A model generated the notes under the pieces. The model had not been told where the DNA came from. It saw nothing but the letters and a program-made list of their open reading frames with translations, and did not search any database. A stretch of DNA of 64,000 nucleotides from Myxococcota bacterium (GTDB lineage: Bacteria > Myxococcota > XYA12-FULL-58-9 > JALHOP01). The DNA lies in the NCBI GenBank assembly GCA_022842935.1, contig JALHOP010000001.1, positions 372,001 through 436,000 on the forward strand, read 5' to 3'. How positions within the stretch are numbered: the stretch's first letter is position 1; the number at the start of each line of letters is the position of its first letter. Positions 2,917 through 18,041 of the stretch are shown here, piece by piece. The position numbers were made by a program, and so were the translations under genes.

Positions 2917-5900
2917 CTAGTAGGCGTAGACGAGCCGTGTCGACAAGCCGACACGCGTGTAGACGTTCGACGTGCGCGTCAGGTCGGCCTCGCTTTCCCA
3001 CGTGAGCTTGGGCAAGATCTCATAGGAGTAGTGGATGCCGCCGCCGCCGCCGAAGCGGACACCTCCCGGCGTTGTCCCTGCCTTCTGGTATTGCAGTGCC
3101 GGGCCGGCGAACAGTCGCAGCTCATGAGCGGCGGTACGGACGCTCAAGCTCGCAGTGAGCGCGTTTGACCAGAAGAGATCGGGGCTGAAGTATCCATCGC
3201 CGAGTGGGCCGTCGAACGCCCCGTGATCGGTGCCGTAGTGGGTGAGGTAGGTCGTGGCGCCCAGGCCGAAGCGCGTCGTGCTGTCGGCGACGGCGAACCA
3301 CTGGGCGCCGCCTTCGGCTCCCAGCTGGAGATTCGAGCTGTCGCTGTTGGCGGTGATGAAGCCAAGGTGCGGAGCCACCCACGCGTGGAGGCGATCGTGT
3401 TCGATCCGCGCTTCCACGCGGGCGAGATGGGAGCGCGCTGCGCCACGACCTTCAGCACCGACGAGCGCAAGGTAGGAGTCGAAACGCAGGGTGCGCTCGA
3501 CACTGGGGCGCAAGAGTAGGTCACCAGCGCGGTGGTCGAAGGACGCGGCGACTTCAAGGCCAGCGTCGGCCAGCGTGTGAAGGTCAATACGAGCGCTCGC
3601 GAGATCGGCCTCGCCGACCAGTACCTCGGCAAAGGCACCGACGACGGCGCCGCTCGCGCGCTCGACCCCGCTCCAGTATGTTTCGCCGCCCGCGCGCAGG
3701 CCGGCGACCACCGTGCCCGCTACCTCGAGTGAGCCGCTCGCGGTCGCGCCGAAGCCATACAGCTCGTAGACCCCCGCCGGTTGGATGAGCGCGGTAACCT
3801 TGCCCGTGACGGCCGGACCATCGCGGCCTTCGAGCTCGTAGTTGAGGCGCGCCACCGTGGCGTCGTTGGGAGCGAGCTTGCGTGCGAGACGAGCTTGCTC
3901 GAGCGCTCGCTGTCGGTCGCCCTGCGCGGCGTAGGCGCGCGCGAGACCGACGCGCGGCCTGACGTCTCGTCCATCCGCTTTGGCGGCTTGATGGTAGAGC
4001 TCCAGCGCTTGGGGCAGGGTGTCTTCGTCACTGGCAAGGAGGCCCGCGTACGCAATGCGGGACTCTCGGTCGCCTGCCTTCGTTAGCCTCTCGTATTCGT
4101 CGAGCGCTTGCTTGCGGGTGCCGGCGCGGCGGGCCAATAGACCTGCATAGGCGCGTCTCGTCTTCGCATCTTCGGGCCGCATCCGGACTAGCTCAGAGTA
4201 CGTCGCGATCGCCTTGTCGTGATACTTGCCGTCCCGCGCGTAGAGCTCGGCGAGCGTGCGGCCGGTTTCGTAGTCGTGCCGCTCCTTCCACGTCTTCTCG
4301 TATTCGGGGATAGCGCGCGTCCCTTGGGCTTCGTCCCACAACAAGAGCTTCTGGTAGTCGCGGCGCAGCGTCGCGTCATTCGGTGTCGCGTCGAGCAGTC
4401 GTTCGTATTCGTCGAGCGCAGCCCGGACGTCTTTTTTGTCCTGGGCGAGGAGCTTCGCGAGCTCGAGACGCATCGCTGGGTCGTCCTTCTTCGCGAGTCC
4501 CTGGCGGTAATAGCGGATGGCGTCTTTTCGTCGGTAGCCGTAGCGCGACCACTTGAGGCGTTGCGCTTGCGCGAAGTTTACATCGGTGTCGTCGGGAAAA
4601 CGTGCCAGGTACTTGTCGTATTGCTCGACCGCTTTGTCGTACAGCCCCTGCTGCTCGTAAGCAGTGCCGAGGCTGCGCATGGCGTCCGCGTTGTCGGGGT
4701 TGAGCTCGACCGCCTTCTCGTAGGCCTCGATCGCTGCCTTGAAATTGCCGATCTCCATGTTGGAGCGACCACGCATCATGTACCAGGACTCACGGATGCC
4801 CTCGGCATGTGCGCTCGAGCAGACACCCATGACTAGCAGCGCGGGGAGCAGAGCGCGCGCGATGCCGCGGGTGAGGTGCCAGAACATCGCAAGGTTGCTC
4901 CGGGGTTCGTTCGCGTGCGCCCTCTCCCACGATTTTGGGTGGGCGTAGAGCGCGAGCAGTAGTGCGCGCCGCTCGGCTGCGCCTAGCACGAAGCGAAACC
5001 CGAGACGCAAACGTCCTCCCCCGAGCGGCTGCTCATAGACCCGCTTCGCCGGCAAGATGAGCGGCCCGTCGTACATGTCGAGCGTTAGGTCGGCCTCTGA
5101 CGCCATCGCTAGGACCGCCGCGGAGCGTGTCACTTCGAGGGCGCATCCCGAGAGGCTGACGTCGCGTGTCGCGCCCATCTCGATACCGTCGACGCGCACC
5201 TTGAACGTGCGCCGCAAGCGCTCCTCGACGCGTCGTTGGGGCCGCTCCCAAGCGACCAACAACGCCACTGCGAGGCCCAACAGGTTCACCGTAGCCCACA
5301 CGATGTTGAGCACGTAAGCGTCGCGCTCGATACCGAACGCTGTCATCTCGACGTAACCCTTGACGATGCCAGCGAGTGTCAGCAGCGCGGCAATGATGGT
5401 GAGTAACGAAGAGCTCGCATCGAAGCTCCGCTTCGTCGACACGATTCCCTTTGGAGTCACCTTGAAGCCGAGCGACTTCGGCAAGAAGAGGTCGAACATG
5501 GCGCGAAAAAGTGGGAACGAGACGACGAGCTCGTAGACGACGCCCCAACCAAAGCGCGGCCACCCGGGCAAGAGGGCGGACGAAACCATGGGCAAAAAGA
5601 TGATGGCCGGCATGAGATATGCGAGCAACTCGGGGAGGTCGGCGAAGAGAGGGTGAAGGTGGAAGAAGAGAAAGTAGAGGGGTGTGAGCCAGTAGATGAC
5701 CCGAAAGAGGGGATGCAGAAAGTAGTAGAGCGAGGCGAAGTAGCCTAGGCGCAAGCGAAGCGGCAGTCCGCGATGAAGGATTGGGTTGTCTTTGAAGAAG
5801 ATCTGTAAGCAACCAAGCATCCATCGACGCCGCTGAACCAGGTAGCTCGAGAGATTTTCGGCGGTGAGACCGACCGCGAGGTCTTTGTCGACGAAACGTG

Positions 5901-7902
5901 TGCGCCAGCCCCGGGCGTGCAGGTGCTGGCTGGTATGGATGTCCTCGGTGATCGATAGCAGATTGAACCCGCCGTTCTCGTCGAGTGCCTTCCGGCGAAA
6001 GAGCGCGCCGCTGCCGACGAAGAAGGCGCCACCCCAGCCGTCGCGCCCATTCTGGATGGCGTGGTTGAAGAGATCTTGTTCGTTCGCCACCGTGCCCTCT
6101 AGACGAAACGCGCGCTGAAAAATGTCGTCATTGTAGAAGTGATGTGGCGTTTGTACGACCGCGAGCTTGTCGTCGACGAACCACGACACTGTCTCTTCGA
6201 GGAAGCTCGTGACCGGGATGTGGTCGGTGTCGAACACCAAGACCAGCTCGCCCGAGGTCACCGTCATGGCGTTGTTCAGGTTACCTGCCTTGGCGTGCTT
6301 CTTGGGACCCTTGATGTAGCCGGCCCCGTGCGACGCCGCGAGGGTTCGCACCTCGTCGCGGTGGCTGTCATCGCAGACCCAGATCTTCTTGTTCGCGTAG
6401 CGCATGGCGACGGCCGCGATGAGGGTCTTGTCGAGTATGTCTGTCGACTCGGAGTAGATTGGGATGAGGACATCGACCGATGGCGTGAACGAGGGGACGT
6501 CCGGCCGTGCAGGCTTCTCGCGTGGCCACAGGCCGACTTGCAGCACGAGGAGCACGACGGTGGTGAAACTGTACGCTTCAGCACACCACAACGCGATGCT
6601 GATGATCGGCCCGAAAGTCTCGACGAAGTTGAGGCTGGTCGTGAGTCGCCACACGAGGTAGCGCGCACATAGTGCGAGCCCCGAGACCACGAAAGCGACG
6701 CGCGCCGCGCGGAACCGCTTTCCAAGAAAGAACGACACGAAGGTCGCTAGCACCCAGGCTAGCGGCAAGTGAACGAGAAAGCCCTCCATGTCGAATGGCC
6801 GGAGAAAAGCGAAGAGCTCGTTACCCTGGACGACGCGGTCGAGCGCGAAGGCTCGATCGAACCACAACCAGTTGTGCAGGTAGTAAGGCGTTTCCTTGTT
6901 TTGCAACGCCTTGCCAAAAAGCTGGGCGAGCTTCTCGCGCTCGAGGCGCTCGGCGAAGTCGCGGTCCTCGACCAATGCGAGCGCATGCACCGACGCGTAG
7001 TGGGGGAGCCCTTCGAGCTGCGATAGCGGATGACCGTTCGTGTCGTACCGCTCCACGAGCCTTCCGCTCGTCGCGTAGATTTCCTCGACGTTGTCGAGTA
7101 GCACGCGAGCACTGCGCTCGGCGCGGCCGTGCCACGCCGCGTCGACGGCAAGGCGAAAGAAGAGGGGCACGACGTCATAGCCGAACGTCGCGATTTTGCC
7201 GCCCGGCTTGCTTAGCAGCAGGGTGTTCTTGTTCTTGTCGAGGTAGACGATCTCGGGAGGAAGCTTGGTCCGTTCCTGCAGCCAGTCTAGGAGGGCGTAG
7301 CTCGAGGCCGCGAGCCCCCGCCAGTCGTGCTTCGCGTCGACCTCGGCGAACACTGTGTACGACGCCGGGGCGAGATAGCCGACGTGAATGGTGACGTAGC
7401 GCTCGCGGGATGCCCAGTTCCCCGCCGAGAGATAGGGAACTCCGTTCGCGACGACGACCTCCTGCTTCCAGATGTCGTCGATGAGCGCGAGCGCTTCGCT
7501 GCGATACGTCTTCACCTCGAAGAGCCGTGAAGCGACGATCAGGGCGAGAGCGATGTCGACGTCGGCGTCGCTCGCGGTGTTGTGGTCGACGACTCCGCGA
7601 CCATCGTGTTTCCAGGCGAATAACAGGTCGCGACGGGTCCTTAGGTTTTCCTTCGTCCATCGCCAGATCGACGCGAAGGCCTCTTTGTCGCGCTGCCAGA
7701 CCGCGCGGAGCATGCCGTAGCTCTGCGCCTCGCTGGTCGTAATGCCCCGCTCGTCGAGCTCCACGACGCGTCCATCTTTGACGTAGTCGAACTCGTAGCG
7801 GCTCCAAAGCGCTGAAAGCTCGTCGAGCTGACGCAGATAGCGGTCGCTCGTACGCTCGTCGGCCGGAGCGGCCGCGAGAATCAAGGAAAGCCAGAGGGTC
7901 AC
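2917..7902 (-). CDS. Giant fusion: GH8 endoglucanase - cellulose synthase (BcsA/PilZ) - TPR - BcsC-like outer-membrane barrel
   Basis: One uninterrupted 1661-codon frame with the parts of several bcs genes in order. Residues 1-14 resemble a signal peptide. About 20-350 is glycoside hydrolase family 8, with TSEAQSYGM (general acid Glu58) and SDADVDIAL (112-119). Membrane helices at about 375-460 lead to the GT2 domain: CDDS (510-513), KAGNLNNAM, FDTDH (557-561), QTPHHFYN, FFVGSG, TED (652-654), QRRRW (690-694), then more helices and FKVTPKG. PilZ for c-di-GMP spans about 890-985 with RVEER and DVSLSG. A second signal-peptide-like stretch covers 1006-1033. TPRs follow to about 1330, and the rest is Gly/aromatic-rich beta-barrel ending in RLVYAY. 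Known logic: BcsA makes cellulose, PilZ activates it, BcsC exports, BcsZ trims. No bcsB is adjacent. The start is GTG with a weak ribosome site. Confidence 0.9.
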   Translation of the reverse strand: MTLWLSLILAAAPADERTSDRYLRQLDELSALWSRYEFDYVKDGRVVELDERGITTSEAQSYGMLRAVWQRDKEAFASIWRWTKENLRTRRDLLFAWKHDGRGVVDHNTASDADVDIALALIVASRLFEVKTYRSEALALIDDIWKQEVVVANGVPYLSAGNWASRERYVTIHVGYLAPASYTVFAEVDAKHDWRGLAASSYALLDWLQERTKLPPEIVYLDKNKNTLLLSKPGGKIATFGYDVVPLFFRLAVDAAWHGRAERSARVLLDNVEEIYATSGRLVERYDTNGHPLSQLEGLPHYASVHALALVEDRDFAERLEREKLAQLFGKALQNKETPYYLHNWLWFDRAFALDRVVQGNELFAFLRPFDMEGFLVHLPLAWVLATFVSFFLGKRFRAARVAFVVSGLALCARYLVWRLTTSLNFVETFGPIISIALWCAEAYSFTTVVLLVLQVGLWPREKPARPDVPSFTPSVDVLIPIYSESTDILDKTLIAAVAMRYANKKIWVCDDSHRDEVRTLAASHGAGYIKGPKKHAKAGNLNNAMTVTSGELVLVFDTDHIPVTSFLEETVSWFVDDKLAVVQTPHHFYNDDIFQRAFRLEGTVANEQDLFNHAIQNGRDGWGGAFFVGSGALFRRKALDENGGFNLLSITEDIHTSQHLHARGWRTRFVDKDLAVGLTAENLSSYLVQRRRWMLGCLQIFFKDNPILHRGLPLRLRLGYFASLYYFLHPLFRVIYWLTPLYFLFFHLHPLFADLPELLAYLMPAIIFLPMVSSALLPGWPRFGWGVVYELVVSFPLFRAMFDLFLPKSLGFKVTPKGIVSTKRSFDASSSLLTIIAALLTLAGIVKGYVEMTAFGIERDAYVLNIVWATVNLLGLAVALLVAWERPQRRVEERLRRTFKVRVDGIEMGATRDVSLSGCALEVTRSAAVLAMASEADLTLDMYDGPLILPAKRVYEQPLGGGRLRLGFRFVLGAAERRALLLALYAHPKSWERAHANEPRSNLAMFWHLTRGIARALLPALLVMGVCSSAHAEGIRESWYMMRGRSNMEIGNFKAAIEAYEKAVELNPDNADAMRSLGTAYEQQGLYDKAVEQYDKYLARFPDDTDVNFAQAQRLKWSRYGYRRKDAIRYYRQGLAKKDDPAMRLELAKLLAQDKKDVRAALDEYERLLDATPNDATLRRDYQKLLLWDEAQGTRAIPEYEKTWKERHDYETGRTLAELYARDGKYHDKAIATYSELVRMRPEDAKTRRAYAGLLARRAGTRKQALDEYERLTKAGDRESRIAYAGLLASDEDTLPQALELYHQAAKADGRDVRPRVGLARAYAAQGDRQRALEQARLARKLAPNDATVARLNYELEGRDGPAVTGKVTALIQPAGVYELYGFGATASGSLEVAGTVVAGLRAGGETYWSGVERASGAVVGAFAEVLVGEADLASARIDLHTLADAGLEVAASFDHRAGDLLLRPSVERTLRFDSYLALVGAEGRGAARSHLARVEARIEHDRLHAWVAPHLGFITANSDSSNLQLGAEGGAQWFAVADSTTRFGLGATTYLTHYGTDHGAFDGPLGDGYFSPDLFWSNALTASLSVRTAAHELRLFAGPALQYQKAGTTPGGVRFGGGGGIHYSYEILPKLTWESEADLTRTSNVYTRVGLSTRLVYAY
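4804..4887 (-). other. Internal signal-peptide-like segment with possible internal translation start inside the cellulose-synthase fusion
   Basis: Codons 1006-1033 of the fusion read as a textbook Sec signal peptide: an in-frame ATG (4885-4887), basic residues (HLTRGIAR), a hydrophobic core (ALLPALLVMGVC) and an AHA site before Glu-Gly. It falls exactly between the PilZ domain and the first TPR, where separate bcsA and bcsC genes would meet. GGAG lies about ten bases upstream of the ATG, so a second, separate TPR-barrel protein could start here. Alternatively the polyprotein may be cut by signal peptidase after residue 1033. Confidence 0.6.
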
Positions 7903-8003
7903 GCTGCCCGGCTTTCAGCACGCCCGCGCAGGGAAGACAACCCGGACCCGGGCTTGTCTAACCCCGTGTTGACTCTGCGCTATGTGGCGGATAGTCCACC
8001 GCC

Positions 8004-9596
8004 GTGCCACTTCACGACCTCGAACAGCTCGTCACTTACGTCGACAAAGACTCGGCCCCCCGCATCATCCACTTCGGCGAGGACTTCCTGCTCGAAGACT
8101 TGCCGGTCGGGACACGTGTCATCTATCCCCCGCCGCCTCTTGCCGGTCTCGCCAACGTCGACGCCGCGATTCGCCACGCCGTGACGCACCCACTCGGTAT
8201 GGAGCCCCTCCACGCGTTGCTTACGCCGGGTATGAAGGTCACCATCGCGGTCGACGATATCTCGTTGCCGTTGCCGCCCATGAAGACGCCGGAGGTGCGT
8301 GAGCGCATCCTGAACGTCGTCCTTCAGATGCTCTCTGACTACGGGGTCGATGACGTCCACATCATCATCGCCACGGGTGTCCACCGCCGCATGACCGAGG
8401 GCGAGGTCAAGCGGATGGTCGGCGCGACGATCTTCAAGGCGTACTGGCCGGACCGGCTCTACAACCACGACGCCGAAGATCCGAATGGCATCACGTCGCT
8501 CGGCGAGACCGACGCGGGCGAGAAGGTTGAGCTCAACAAGCGCGCCTGCGAGAGCGATCTCATCATCTACGTCAACATCAACCTTGTGCCCATGAATGGG
8601 GGCAACAAGTCGGTCGGCGTAGGTTTGTGCAACTACCGGACGTTGCTCTCGCACCACAACCCGAAGGTGCTCCGCGCGACCGAGACGTACATGACGCCCG
8701 AGCGTTCGCACATGCACGGCATCTACAATCGCATCGGGCGCTTCATCAACTCGAAGCTCAAGGTCTTCCACATCGAGACCGTGCTCAACAACCGCATGTA
8801 TGACGCGCAGCTCGACTTCCTTGGGCGTAACGAAGACCACTTCACCGACCTCGACTGGCTCAAGTTCGATGCCATGCGCTTCTCTCTCAAGCACCTGCCG
8901 CGCGGCGCCAAGAACAAGATGATGATGAAGGTGCCAGCGGCCTATGAGGTCGTGCAGGTCACGGCTGGCGCAACCGAGCCCGTTCACGAGAAGACGCTCG
9001 AGAAGTCCTTCCAGCAGTACACGGTGCCCGTAAAGGGCCAGTGCGACATCCTCATCATGGGTGTGCCGTACATCTCGCCGTACAACGTGAACTCGATCTT
9101 GAACCCGTTGCTCGTGCAGGTGCAGGCGCTCGGCTACCTCCACAATATGCACAAGGGTACTCCGCTGTGCCGTCAGGGGGGCACACTCATCGTCTGCCAC
9201 CCGTGCTTCGATGGCTTCGATCCGGAGCATCACCCGAGCTACATCGAGTTCTTCAACAGGCTCCTGCCAGAAACCCGCGACGCCATGACGTTGCACAAGA
9301 AGTACGAGCGCGAGTTCGCGCAGAACCCGTCGTACATCGATCGGTTCCGGTTCGGGCACGCCTACCATGGGTCACACCCGTTTTTCATGTGGTACTGGGG
9401 CGAACGCGGGCGCCAACACTACGGGCGCGTTATTGCCGCTGGTGCGGACAACTCGCGCGTGCCGGAGCTGCTCGGTTGGGAGCGCGCCGACTCGTTGCAA
9501 GAGGCCATCGCCATGGCGCGCGCGACGGCGCCGTCCTCTCCCGAGATCACTCACATGCACTACGCGCCCATCTTCATCTGTGACGTGCAGGCGTGA
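8004..9596 (+). CDS. LarA-like nickel-pincer racemase/epimerase homologue (DUF2088)
   Basis: A 530-residue protein whose N-terminal half carries LarA (lactate racemase) signatures: IAVDDIS at 81-87, [14 protein letters not shown] at 121-134, the LYNHD His at 155, and [10 protein letters not shown] at 199-208, where Lys202 aligns by eye with the lysine that anchors the nickel pincer cofactor in LarA. LarA homologues racemise or epimerise 2-hydroxy acids in the cytoplasm. At 530 aa it is longer than typical LarA (about 420 aa). LarB, LarC and LarE, which build the cofactor, are not in the window, so activity is an inference. The start is GTG; the stop overlaps the following PilZ gene by 4 bp. 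Confidence 0.75.
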
Positions 9597-10213
9597 AGAT
9601 GACGAGCAACAAGCGTAGTCACATTCGTATCCTGGTGGCCTTGAAGGTCACGGCCGAGACGGCCACGGGGCGCGTCAAGGCCCTCACCAAGAACCTGAGC
9701 GTAGGCGGTGTGTATCTTTTGACGGACGCCAAGTGGGCTGCCGGCACGCGGGTCGACCTCAACCTCGCGCACAAGGGCGTCGAGGTGCAGATGCGCGCCG
9801 AGGTTACCCACCGCCGCGAAGACGGTATCGGCATGCGTTTCGTCGACCCAGCGCCGGTCGCCGTCACCGAGCTCATTGGCGTCATCGACGACATCTGCAG
9901 CAGCGGTGTGGATCTCGATGGTGACATGCTGAACGTCGACGAACGCTTGGTATTGTTTCGCCGTGGGATGCTCGAATACGTCGGTCGCGTCGAGCGGGCC
10001 GGGGAAGGTGTCATCGCCATCGAGACGGCGGAGAAGCTACGCCAAGGTGAGCCTCTCCTCGTGTTGCTGCCAGCGCGCAGCGACGGGGCTCACGTGCGTG
10101 AGATCGTTGGTTCGTTCGCCGAGGTCATGCAACCCGTCGATAGTGGCTTCACCGCGCGCTTCATCGATGCAAGCGACGAGTTCCTTACCGCCCTGAAGCG
10201 GGTCAACCAGTGA
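9593..10213 (+). CDS. PilZ-domain protein
   Basis: A 206-residue protein starting with a PilZ domain: RSHIR (8-12) supplies the RxxxR half of the c-di-GMP site and NLSVGG (34-39) the [D/N]xSxxG half, followed by a run of beta strands ending near GIGMRFVDP. The C-terminal half (about 100-206) looks like a second beta-rich, PilZ-like domain without those motifs. The GTG start overlaps the LarA-like stop (GTGA), and an ATG two codons later is an alternative. Its own end overlaps the SDR gene in the same way. Coupling puts a probable c-di-GMP sensor in an enzyme operon, divergent from a PilZ-bearing cellulose synthase. Confidence 0.82.
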
Positions 10214-15177: not shown

Positions 15178-16704
15178 TCAGCGCAGGGCGGGGTTGCCCT
15201 GCGGACCGCCCGGGGTTGTCGAGCCACCTTTCTTGTCGGCCGGCGGCGGCGCGCGCACCTCGACGCTGCGTGACATGTCGGACTGTCCGAGAGCCTCGAG
15301 CTGCGCCTTGAGCTGGCTTTCATCACCGACGACGACAATCTCGAGCTTGTCGTCGTCGATGTGCTCTTTGACGGCTCTGGCGATGTGCTCGAGCGTGACC
15401 TCGTTGAGCTTGGCGCCGATGGTGCCGTAGTAGTCGAGCGGCAGGTCGTACATGTAGATGGTGCTCATCATGCGCGCGAGGGAGCGCACCGTGTCGAACT
15501 CTCCGGGGAGCGACTCAATGTAGTTGCTCTTCGCGCTTTCTAGTTCCGCGGCGGTGATGCCGCTTTGGCGGATCTTGCGGATCTCGAGAAGGATCTCGTG
15601 AATTGCGGGGGCGGCCACCTCGGGACGCGTGCTCGTCGCGACGAAAAATGCGCCGGGGCCGCGACCGTAGTTGAAGGCCGACGAGGCTCCGTAGGTGAAA
15701 CCCTTCTGCTCGCGCAGGTTCATGTTGATTCGGCTGTTGAACTGGCCGCCAAGCACGAGGTTCGTGAGGACCAGCGCGTAAAAGTCAGGATGCGAGCGCG
15801 GGACGCCAACGTGCCCAGCCAAGATCTGCGCCTGCGCCGCGCCCGCTTTGGGCACGAGGATGATGCCAGGCTTACGTGGGGCCACCGGGCCGATGGCGGG
15901 CGGCGTATCGGTCCCTTTCCAGCCGCCGAAGCGACTCTCGGCGAGCTTGACGGCTTCGGCGCTCGTGATGTCACCGACGACGATGACTGCTGCGTTGCCT
16001 GGTCGGAAGCGTTTGGCGTGGAATGCTTTGAGGTCGTCGCGTTTCACCTTGGAGAGACCATCTGGGGTGACGGCGGCGCTACGGCCATAAGGATGATCGC
16101 CGTAGATTGTTTGCAATAGCGTACGCGAGGCCAGGCGTGGAGGGCTGTCGCGTTCCTGTAGCAGATTCGTGGTCATCTGCGCGCGCACGCGCTCGAGCTC
16201 GTCGCTCGGGAAGCTGGGGTTTTGGACGACGTCGGCGAGGACGTCGAAGGCCTGCGGCAGGTTGTCGCGAAGCACCTGCACGAAGGCGGCGCTACCATCG
16301 AGATCGGTGGAGCTCGTGATCTGCGTGCCCAGCGTCTCGATAGCCTCGTCGATATCGGACGCTTTGCGCGTCGCCGTGCCCGACTGCAGCATGTTCGCGA
16401 CCATCTGAGCGATGCCTTCGTGGCCCTTGGTGTCGGCGGAGGTCCCGCTACGCACCACGAGTTGCACCGCTACTAGCGGCAATTCGTGCTTCTCGATGAC
16501 GAGCACCGTGAGGCCATTCGCCAGCACCGTTCGTGACGGTATCGGCCCAACGAAGTCCTTGGGCTTGCCGGGTTTTGGCTGCTCGCTTCGGAATGCATGG
16601 GTGGCGTCACCGGGGCCATTGGCGCCAGGGGTCACCGGTTTGTCGCCTCCACGGGTGCAGGCGAATGCCAAAACGGACATGAACGAGACGAGTGTGCGAC
16701 GCAT
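15178..16704 (-). CDS. M16-family peptidase homologue lacking the zinc motif (lipoprotein)
   Basis: A 508-residue insulinase-fold protein. ATG at 16704 gives MRRTLVSFMSVLAFAC, a lipoprotein-type signal with Cys16. The M16 start SRTVLANGLTVLVIEKHELPLVAVQLVV is clear, but where active members carry HxxEH this protein has KGHEGIAQMVANML, with neither His-Glu pair nor zinc ligands. The RxxGaSSAF-like C-terminal half (GFTYGASSAF, GPGAFFV) that contributes Arg-Tyr to partner binding is present. It overlaps the stop of the HxxEH-bearing M16 gene by one base (TAATG). Known two-subunit M16 enzymes pair one zinc-bearing with one zinc-less chain, so these two probably form a heterodimer. Confidence 0.87.
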   Translation of the reverse strand: MRRTLVSFMSVLAFACTRGGDKPVTPGANGPGDATHAFRSEQPKPGKPKDFVGPIPSRTVLANGLTVLVIEKHELPLVAVQLVVRSGTSADTKGHEGIAQMVANMLQSGTATRKASDIDEAIETLGTQITSSTDLDGSAAFVQVLRDNLPQAFDVLADVVQNPSFPSDELERVRAQMTTNLLQERDSPPRLASRTLLQTIYGDHPYGRSAAVTPDGLSKVKRDDLKAFHAKRFRPGNAAVIVVGDITSAEAVKLAESRFGGWKGTDTPPAIGPVAPRKPGIILVPKAGAAQAQILAGHVGVPRSHPDFYALVLTNLVLGGQFNSRINMNLREQKGFTYGASSAFNYGRGPGAFFVATSTRPEVAAPAIHEILLEIRKIRQSGITAAELESAKSNYIESLPGEFDTVRSLARMMSTIYMYDLPLDYYGTIGAKLNEVTLEHIARAVKEHIDDDKLEIVVVGDESQLKAQLEALGQSDMSRSVEVRAPPPADKKGGSTTPGGPQGNPALR

Positions 16705-18041
16705 TAGTTCTGCCCCACGTGTGGCAACGGGACTGTTGTAAGGATGACGCGATGGTCTTTGACGAGCAGCTCTTTGGCGACGCGCTGCACGTCGGCGCTG
16801 GTGATCGTCTGATAGGTGCCGATCCACTCGCGTACGTAGCCGGGGTCGCCAGTGTAATGCGTGAAGAAAGCTAGCGTGTCCGCTCGTGCCCCGACTGTCT
16901 GAAGCTCTGCCATGTGGTCGGTGATGATGCTGTTCTTGGCGGCGGTCAGTTCTCTCGACGTTGGTGGGGCTTCGCCGACTAGCTCATCCAAGACCTTTTG
17001 CATCTCGTTTTCGAGCTTCGCGGCTGAGACGCCGGGGCGCGCTGTCGCCATGATGGTGAATACCGAGCCCAAGCTATGTGATGACTGGTCCGCTGTAACG
17101 GATTGAGCGATTTGTAAATCGTGGACCAAGCGCTTGTGCAGACGCGACTGGCGCCCGTCACCCAGAACCGCCGCAAGGATGTCGCATACGTAATCGTCGC
17201 GCGAGAACGGTTTGGGAGACACCCACGCCATGTGCACGCGCGGGAGCTGCACGTTCTCCGTAACGTCGACCCTCTTCTCGTTCTGGAGCTTCGGCTCGGG
17301 GACGACGCGCGAGTTGCCAACCGCGCGGTCGGGCAGCGTCGCGAAGTACTTGTCGACGAGTGCCTTGGTCGGCTCGATGGCGATGTCGCCAGCGATGACG
17401 AGAATCGCGTTTCGCGGCGCATAGTAGCGGTCGTAGAAGCCTTGCACGTCCTCGAGGGTCGCGGCGTTCAGGTCCTTCATGGAGCCGATCACCATGCCGT
17501 AATACGGATGGCTCGGTGGGTAGATCGACTGAATGAGCTGTTCGCTCGAGGCTCCGTAGGGCCGGCTCTCGATTTGCTGACGGCGTTCCTCCTGGACGAC
17601 GGCGCGCTGGTTGTCGAGCTTCTCCTGCGAGATAGTCAGCCAGCCCATGCGGTCGCTCTCCAGCCACAGCGCAAGCTCGAGCTGATGCGCCGGCACGACC
17701 TCGTAGTAGTTGGTTCGATCGTAGTTGGTGCTGCCGTTCAAGTCGGATGCGCCGGCAGCCTCGAGCAGGGCAAAATGTCGGTCGTCTCCGACGTGCGCCG
17801 ACCCCTGAAACATCATGTGCTCGAAGAGGTGCGCGAAACCCGAGCGGCCCGGTTCTTCCTGTGCTGCGCCGACCTTGTACCAAACTTCGACCGCCACCGT
17901 CGGCACGGTGTGGCTTGGGCTCAAGATGACTGTGAGTCCGTTCGGCAGGGTGTAGCGCGTGAACGGTAGCTCGAGCGCTTTGAGAGCGTCACCGGGCTCG
18001 GAGGCGAGCAGCGTGGTTGCGACGATGAGAGATGCCAGCAT
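16704..18041 (-). CDS. M16-family zinc metallopeptidase, active subunit
   Basis: A 445-residue M16 peptidase from the ATG at 18041, which gives signal sequence MLASLIVATTLLASEPGDA. A TTG at 18074 would add 11 residues and is less likely. The inverted zinc motif is HLFEH (71-75) in SGFAHLFEHMMFQGS, with the downstream Glu in the NxxTNYDRTNYYE region typical of the family. It should act in the periplasm together with the zinc-less M16 protein encoded immediately after it (TAATG overlap). A GGGGCT-N7-AGCCCC hairpin ends right at the start codon and could limit translation. Confidence 0.9.
   Translation of the reverse strand: MLASLIVATTLLASEPGDALKALELPFTRYTLPNGLTVILSPSHTVPTVAVEVWYKVGAAQEEPGRSGFAHLFEHMMFQGSAHVGDDRHFALLEAAGASDLNGSTNYDRTNYYEVVPAHQLELALWLESDRMGWLTISQEKLDNQRAVVQEERRQQIESRPYGASSEQLIQSIYPPSHPYYGMVIGSMKDLNAATLEDVQGFYDRYYAPRNAILVIAGDIAIEPTKALVDKYFATLPDRAVGNSRVVPEPKLQNEKRVDVTENVQLPRVHMAWVSPKPFSRDDYVCDILAAVLGDGRQSRLHKRLVHDLQIAQSVTADQSSHSLGSVFTIMATARPGVSAAKLENEMQKVLDELVGEAPPTSRELTAAKNSIITDHMAELQTVGARADTLAFFTHYTGDPGYVREWIGTYQTITSADVQRVAKELLVKDHRVILTTVPLPHVGQN

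Follow-up and report, generated by a model that had tools for sequence, protein, structure and literature searches.

A variant of the bacterial cellulose machine in which synthase, trimming enzyme and BcsC-like export pore are joined in one gene

The window, a stretch of 64,000 nucleotides from a Myxococcota draft genome, contains an apparently new form of bacterial cellulose machinery, with the synthase, the trimming enzyme and the export pore joined in one gene. An earlier note on this DNA had described a single frame of 1661 codons carrying a GH8 domain, BcsA, PilZ residues, a signal-like stretch, TPRs and a BcsC-like end; this description is borne out by the frame itself, by Pfam and NCBIfam profiles and by motifs, and the frame, for which no strand had been named, lies on the minus strand. 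The best explanation, and in our judgment a reasonably probable one, is that the gene encodes, as one precursor, a machine that synthesizes and exports cellulose or a similar beta-glucan without BcsB. The complete single-frame fusion is known from one genome, and the firmer part of the finding is the occurrence, at the level of a clade, of GH8-BcsA together with BcsC and without BcsB.

The fused gene and its domains

GC content at the third codon position is approximately 0.8 and remains in phase from end to end of the fused gene, junction included. The features discussed below are as follows (window coordinates, strand, description):

complement(2917..7902), minus strand: whole fused gene; GTG start, 1661 codons (1661 aa), no internal stops
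7855..7902, minus: N-terminal signal-like segment VTLWLSLILAAAPADE, from reading of the sequence and alignment to relatives
7078..7806, minus: GH8 (BcsZ-like) domain, residues 33-275; Pfam 116 bits, motifs TTSEAQSY and GYD
6541..6780, minus: three transmembrane (TM) segments before the glycosyltransferase (GT), residues 375-393, 399-417 and 436-454; from hydropathy, read as BcsA TM2-TM4
5662..6483, minus: GT2 catalytic domain (GT2 families, residues 474-747); FDTDH 557, TED 652, QRRRW 690
5248..5466, minus: gating loop FKVTPKG (813) and TM segments 829-847 and 867-885, from motif and hydropathy
4951..5238, minus: PilZ domain, residues 889-984; RVEER, DVSLSG (914), Pfam below threshold
4843..4917, minus: post-PilZ helix HANEPRSNLAMFWHLTRGIARALLP, residues 996-1020; homologous to the synthase tail of relatives and the final synthase-derived stretch
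4885..4887, minus: internal ATG (M1006), a candidate internal start, with GGAG about 10 nt upstream
4804..4866, minus: signal-peptide-like segment GIARALLPALLVMGVCSSAHA, residues 1013-1033; predicted cut between AHA and EG (1033/1034)
3808..4797, minus: about nine TPRs (BcsC-like solenoid), residues 1036-1365; Pfam from 1041, single-sequence model
2920..3807, minus: C-terminal part (residues 1366-1661), BcsC-like and interpreted as an outer-membrane barrel; last residues RLVYAY

Both the GH8 fold profile (116 bits) and the catalytic Glu and Asp (SEAQSY, GYD) are present in the N-terminal half. The synthase carries the BcsA motifs DxD, TED and QxxRW as well as the gating loop FxVTxKG, and its best-scoring model is the NCBIfam cellulose synthase family TIGR03030 (residues 377-1011); as the score of 482.5 bits falls below the equivalog cut-off of 699, the protein is named BcsA-like and the polymer it makes may be other than cellulose. 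Among solved structures, BcsA from E. coli and Rhodobacter and GH8 endoglucanases come nearest, with BcsA entries 7LBY and 4HG6 as the best PDB matches. Hydropathy indicates three TM segments ahead of the GT and the usual set behind it. Because alignment to 4HG6 starts at window residue 401, equivalent to residue 66 of the Rhodobacter BcsA chain, the first TM segment of BcsA appears to have been replaced by the signal segment and GH8, an arrangement that would leave GH8 periplasmic and both GT and PilZ cytosolic. Cys is absent from the N-terminal segment of the window protein, which consequently has no lipobox, while most relatives possess one (e.g. LLAC), such that GH8 would additionally be lipid-anchored there.

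The motifs of a C-terminal PilZ domain, RxxxR and DxSxxG, are found as RVEER and DVSLSG, with a profile score of 21.5 bits against a Pfam cut-off of 22.5 and 40-64 bits at the same place in relatives. Single-sequence folding of the BcsA part returned a pLDDT of 36. In the exporter half, the N-terminal TPR solenoid expected of BcsC is recovered both by Pfam and by the single-sequence model, which is confident over residues ~1052-1360 but not over the barrel. The BCSC_C trace (residues 1459-1608) reaches 19.6 bits versus a cut-off of 23.5, compared with 43 bits for the homologue in genome G139, and the C-terminal residue is aromatic, as is typical of outer-membrane barrels. The fused gene is the sole match to GH8, and likewise to BCSC_C, in its own genome.

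Neighboring genes encode a CoA transferase, a Lar_N protein, a PilZ protein, an SDR, and M1 and M16 peptidases. The PilZ protein, which stands alone (9593-10213, plus strand, 54.7 bits), is encoded ~1.7 kb upstream of the fused gene, beside the Lar_N gene (lactate-racemase type, 8004-9596), and might provide another c-di-GMP input. Two M16 peptidase genes lie side by side at 15178-18041 (minus strand) and probably form a pair of the YfmF/YfmH type. An open reading frame at 7980-9368 (minus strand) was rejected as a gene, as it matches no family and overlaps the Lar_N gene on the opposite strand.

A BcsB-free family of two-gene loci

The GH8-BcsA-PilZ chain occurs in 12 of the 195 genomes of the phylum that were searched: the window genome, ten genomes of one GC-rich family, and G139, a member of another family. 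Carriers in the GC-rich family, which appears to be Anaeromyxobacter-like, have genomes of mostly ~5 Mb; GC content, determined for two of the loci, is 76-78%. The GH8-synthase part of the relatives is 54-58% identical to that of the window, and in a tree of the BcsA core all fused sequences fall on one side of a branch (support 100/99), with G139 nearest to the window (61%, support 86/99, unstarred). Occurrence in 12 genomes of a single clade establishes GH8-BcsA as a family rather than a sequencing accident. The novelty that the earlier note saw in the all-in-one chain is therefore narrowed: its GH8-BcsA half belongs to this family. What sets the chain apart is the further fusion to BcsC, which no other readable locus shows, together with the lack of BcsB, a point that the note had overlooked. 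The GH8-BcsA fusion is absent from the other searched genomes of the window's own order, suggesting loss or horizontal acquisition.

Each of the nine relatives whose locus is readable past the 3' end (G020, G037, G069-G073, G076, and G139) displays the arrangement zA-stop-C; loci of G074 and G075 end at contig edges and were left out of this comparison. Specifically, PilZ is followed in these nine by the helix, an extra domain of ~105 residues ending in YLAA, and a stop. Within ~10-45 nt of that stop begins a second gene, bcsC, which encodes a signal peptide, TPRs and a C-terminus of the BcsC type. The extra C-terminal domain (e.g. L062, 7440-7734) matches no Pfam family and is possibly a degenerate second PilZ, to judge by the DxSxxG motif that most copies contain. 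Among the 195 genomes the full fusion turned up only once, in the window genome. A scan of the full-length protein against genome contigs returned a single match, to an unrelated TPR, and a search for the junction in viral contigs returned none. A plasmid tblastn with the GH8-BcsA query yielded no record holding 80% of the query at one place; among the matches listed, bcsA and GH8, where both occur, are separate genes.

BcsB (PF03170) has no match in the window genome, which is 97% complete, and is undetected in all 12 GH8-BcsA fusion genomes, that one included, while the same search finds it in 9/9 phylum genomes with a stand-alone BcsA. Since these genomes are related, the comparison does not comprise 21 independent observations, and with G075 66% and the window genome 97% complete single absences are weak, though the pattern is not. 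BcsB and a stand-alone BcsA are present in G078, which shares its family with most of the genomes that carry the fusion. The BcsB partner of the BcsA-BcsB complex of type I-III bcs systems was thus found neither in the window genome nor in the other fusion genomes. Nor is a hidden BcsB-like gene evident beside the relatives' loci, where only phosphodiester glycosidase, kinase-like, PsiE and hydrolase genes occur, none of them common to all loci; adjacent genes scanned in the window and relatives include no BcsB-like or HlyD-like partner, and those scanned at the locus no TolC. The phosphodiester glycosidase (NAGPA) gene of G037 (L033, 12826-13641) lies upstream of zA on the same strand and is absent at G139. 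A further genome, G051, carries two separate classical bcsA-bcsB loci, L034 (contig 37) and L035 (contig 13), with a GH8 match near each.

The junction and its interpretation

The relatives' synthase profile matches window residues 5-1021 and their BcsC profile begins at 1017, and the fusion point lies at approximately 1020/1021 (window 4842/4843). The alignment score of the post-PilZ helix against the relatives' synthase was reached by 0 of 20000 shuffles, while ALLVMGVCSSAHA, with the EGIRESWY that follows it, aligns with the relatives' BcsC and so belongs to the BcsC-derived side. Past PilZ, a basic stretch containing R residues leads into a hydrophobic core and then into AHA before EG, an AxA motif that resembles a normal signal-peptidase I site. 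In the window alone the ~105-residue domain is missing, along with the stop and the beginning of bcsC, and the remaining ends join in frame inside the former signal peptide. As all three elements are lost, and as homology on both sides reaches the join, a single missed stop is insufficient; a lost or misread stop codon is ruled out by the missing domain. The earlier note had regarded separate genes in all homologues as grounds for abandoning the single chain. The BcsA/BcsC junction is indeed absent from 9/9 readable relatives, but the domain loss defeats the explanation by a missed stop. Of the two options it gave, that one chain would span both membranes or be processed, the first is not required, as the sequence at the join can be taken for a signal peptide open to cleavage.

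In the precursor reading that we favor, the N-terminal signal segment would place GH8 in the periplasm, in the position of the first TM of BcsA, and the three TMs would carry the GT2 domain into the cytosol, where it would polymerize UDP-glucose and thread the chain through the membrane upon c-di-GMP binding to PilZ. Past PilZ, where the helix is fused onto the BcsC signal peptide, the polypeptide would re-enter the Sec path. Most likely signal peptidase I would then cut between AHA and EG (1033/1034), freeing a TPR-barrel exporter of ~68 kDa beside a synthase of ~113 kDa (sizes estimated from residue counts) in a 1:1 ratio. The fusion itself most likely arose from an ancestral two-gene zA-C locus through an in-frame deletion that removed ~105 codons, the stop and the bcsC start. 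Points against the precursor reading are the sub-threshold PilZ and BCSC_C scores, the TIGR03030 score below its cut-off, the published dependence of BcsA on BcsB (PMC11379886) and the single genome in which the complete fusion occurs.

The same junction can be read without cleavage, in which case one polypeptide would span the inner membrane, periplasm and outer membrane, and a covalent link would replace the bridge otherwise provided by BcsB. The frame has no stop, the join immediately precedes TPR1, and the genome lacks BcsB, to which TPR1 of E. coli BcsC is tethered (PMC11379886), such that another link is needed. However, a good cleavage site is retained at the join, BcsC is separate in nine relatives, and it would be unusual for a barrel to reach the outer membrane while its N-terminus stays fixed in the inner one; we consider the uncut chain unlikely. 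Translation might also begin at M1006, giving free BcsC in addition to the complete fusion and so keeping a two-gene output despite the lost stop. Though the ATG is preceded by GGAG and MFWHLTRGIARALLPALLVMGVCSSAHA by itself reads as a complete signal peptide, M1006 lies within the synthase-derived helix, away from the old bcsC start, and a GGAG at such a position can be due to chance, which leaves an internal start improbable.

Two further explanations were weighed. An assembly or binning error, with a stop and the second domain present in the true genome, might be suspected given a single draft genome of 46 contigs, 97% complete, and the lack of a second example among 195 genomes. Yet the join lies in frame inside a 774 kb contig with coding periodicity kept, and the homologous ends meet with only a few residues of overlap or gap; moreover, an error would have had to remove ~400 bp in frame, as no single-base error can delete ~105 codons. 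Such an artifact has, in our estimation, only a slim chance of being the cause. The fusion could instead represent a decaying copy, a step toward loss of the system, and the PilZ score below that of relatives, the missing second domain and the searches of order-level relatives that gave no match are in keeping with this. With 1661 codons free of stops and the catalytic, gating and PilZ motifs all intact, decay is nevertheless very improbable.

Known systems and implications

The fused protein shares with the BcsA-BcsB-BcsZ-BcsC systems of E. coli and Rhodobacter sphaeroides the GT2 motifs, the FxVTxKG loop, QxxRW, PilZ, a GH8 partner and an exporter with TPRs and a putative barrel, and differs from them in having GH8 ahead of BcsA, no BcsB, and the exporter in the same frame, with approximately nine TPRs versus the 19 of E. 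coli BcsC (PMC11379886). Fusion of bcs subunits through lost gene boundaries is likewise known from Zymomonas, as BcsZC and BcsAB (PMC7112194); those fusions, however, join pairs only, Z with C or A with B, and BcsB is kept, partly as BcsAB (PMC7112194). Cyanobacterial type IV (XcsA) systems also lack BcsB and pair a PilZ-bearing cellulose synthase with an endoglucanase, but their XcsB (HlyD-like) and channel (TolC-like) are separate proteins, whereas the exporter of the window is BcsC-like (PMC12430437). Closest are the zA-C loci of the nine relatives, which have the same GH8-BcsA-PilZ chain and BcsC type and no BcsB, and differ in their extra ~105-residue domain, stop codon, separate bcsC and, mostly, N-terminal lipobox. 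No usable paper was found on a GH8-BcsA fusion, a BcsB-free BcsA/BcsC pair or a synthase-exporter fusion in a literature search with poor coverage of subscription papers; provisionally, the whole single-chain arrangement is undescribed, in agreement with the earlier note, which knew of no description of all parts in one chain.

E. coli BcsA depends on BcsB for its activity, and BcsB holds TPR1 of BcsC as well (PMC11379886); a clade without BcsB must therefore solve both jobs otherwise. The GH8 fusion may serve the first, that of BcsA activity, and the covalent link seen in the window may, at least while the machine is being assembled, serve the second, that of tethering. Such a clade can show which jobs BcsB performs and what may substitute for it. 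By tying exporter to synthase, the window gene comes near to a one-gene system that can be expressed and tested, and it poses the question of whether an export machine is made as a precursor cut by signal peptidase or as one chain holding both membranes. Were the uncut reading true, a single polypeptide would trim, synthesize and export a glucan while anchored in both membranes.
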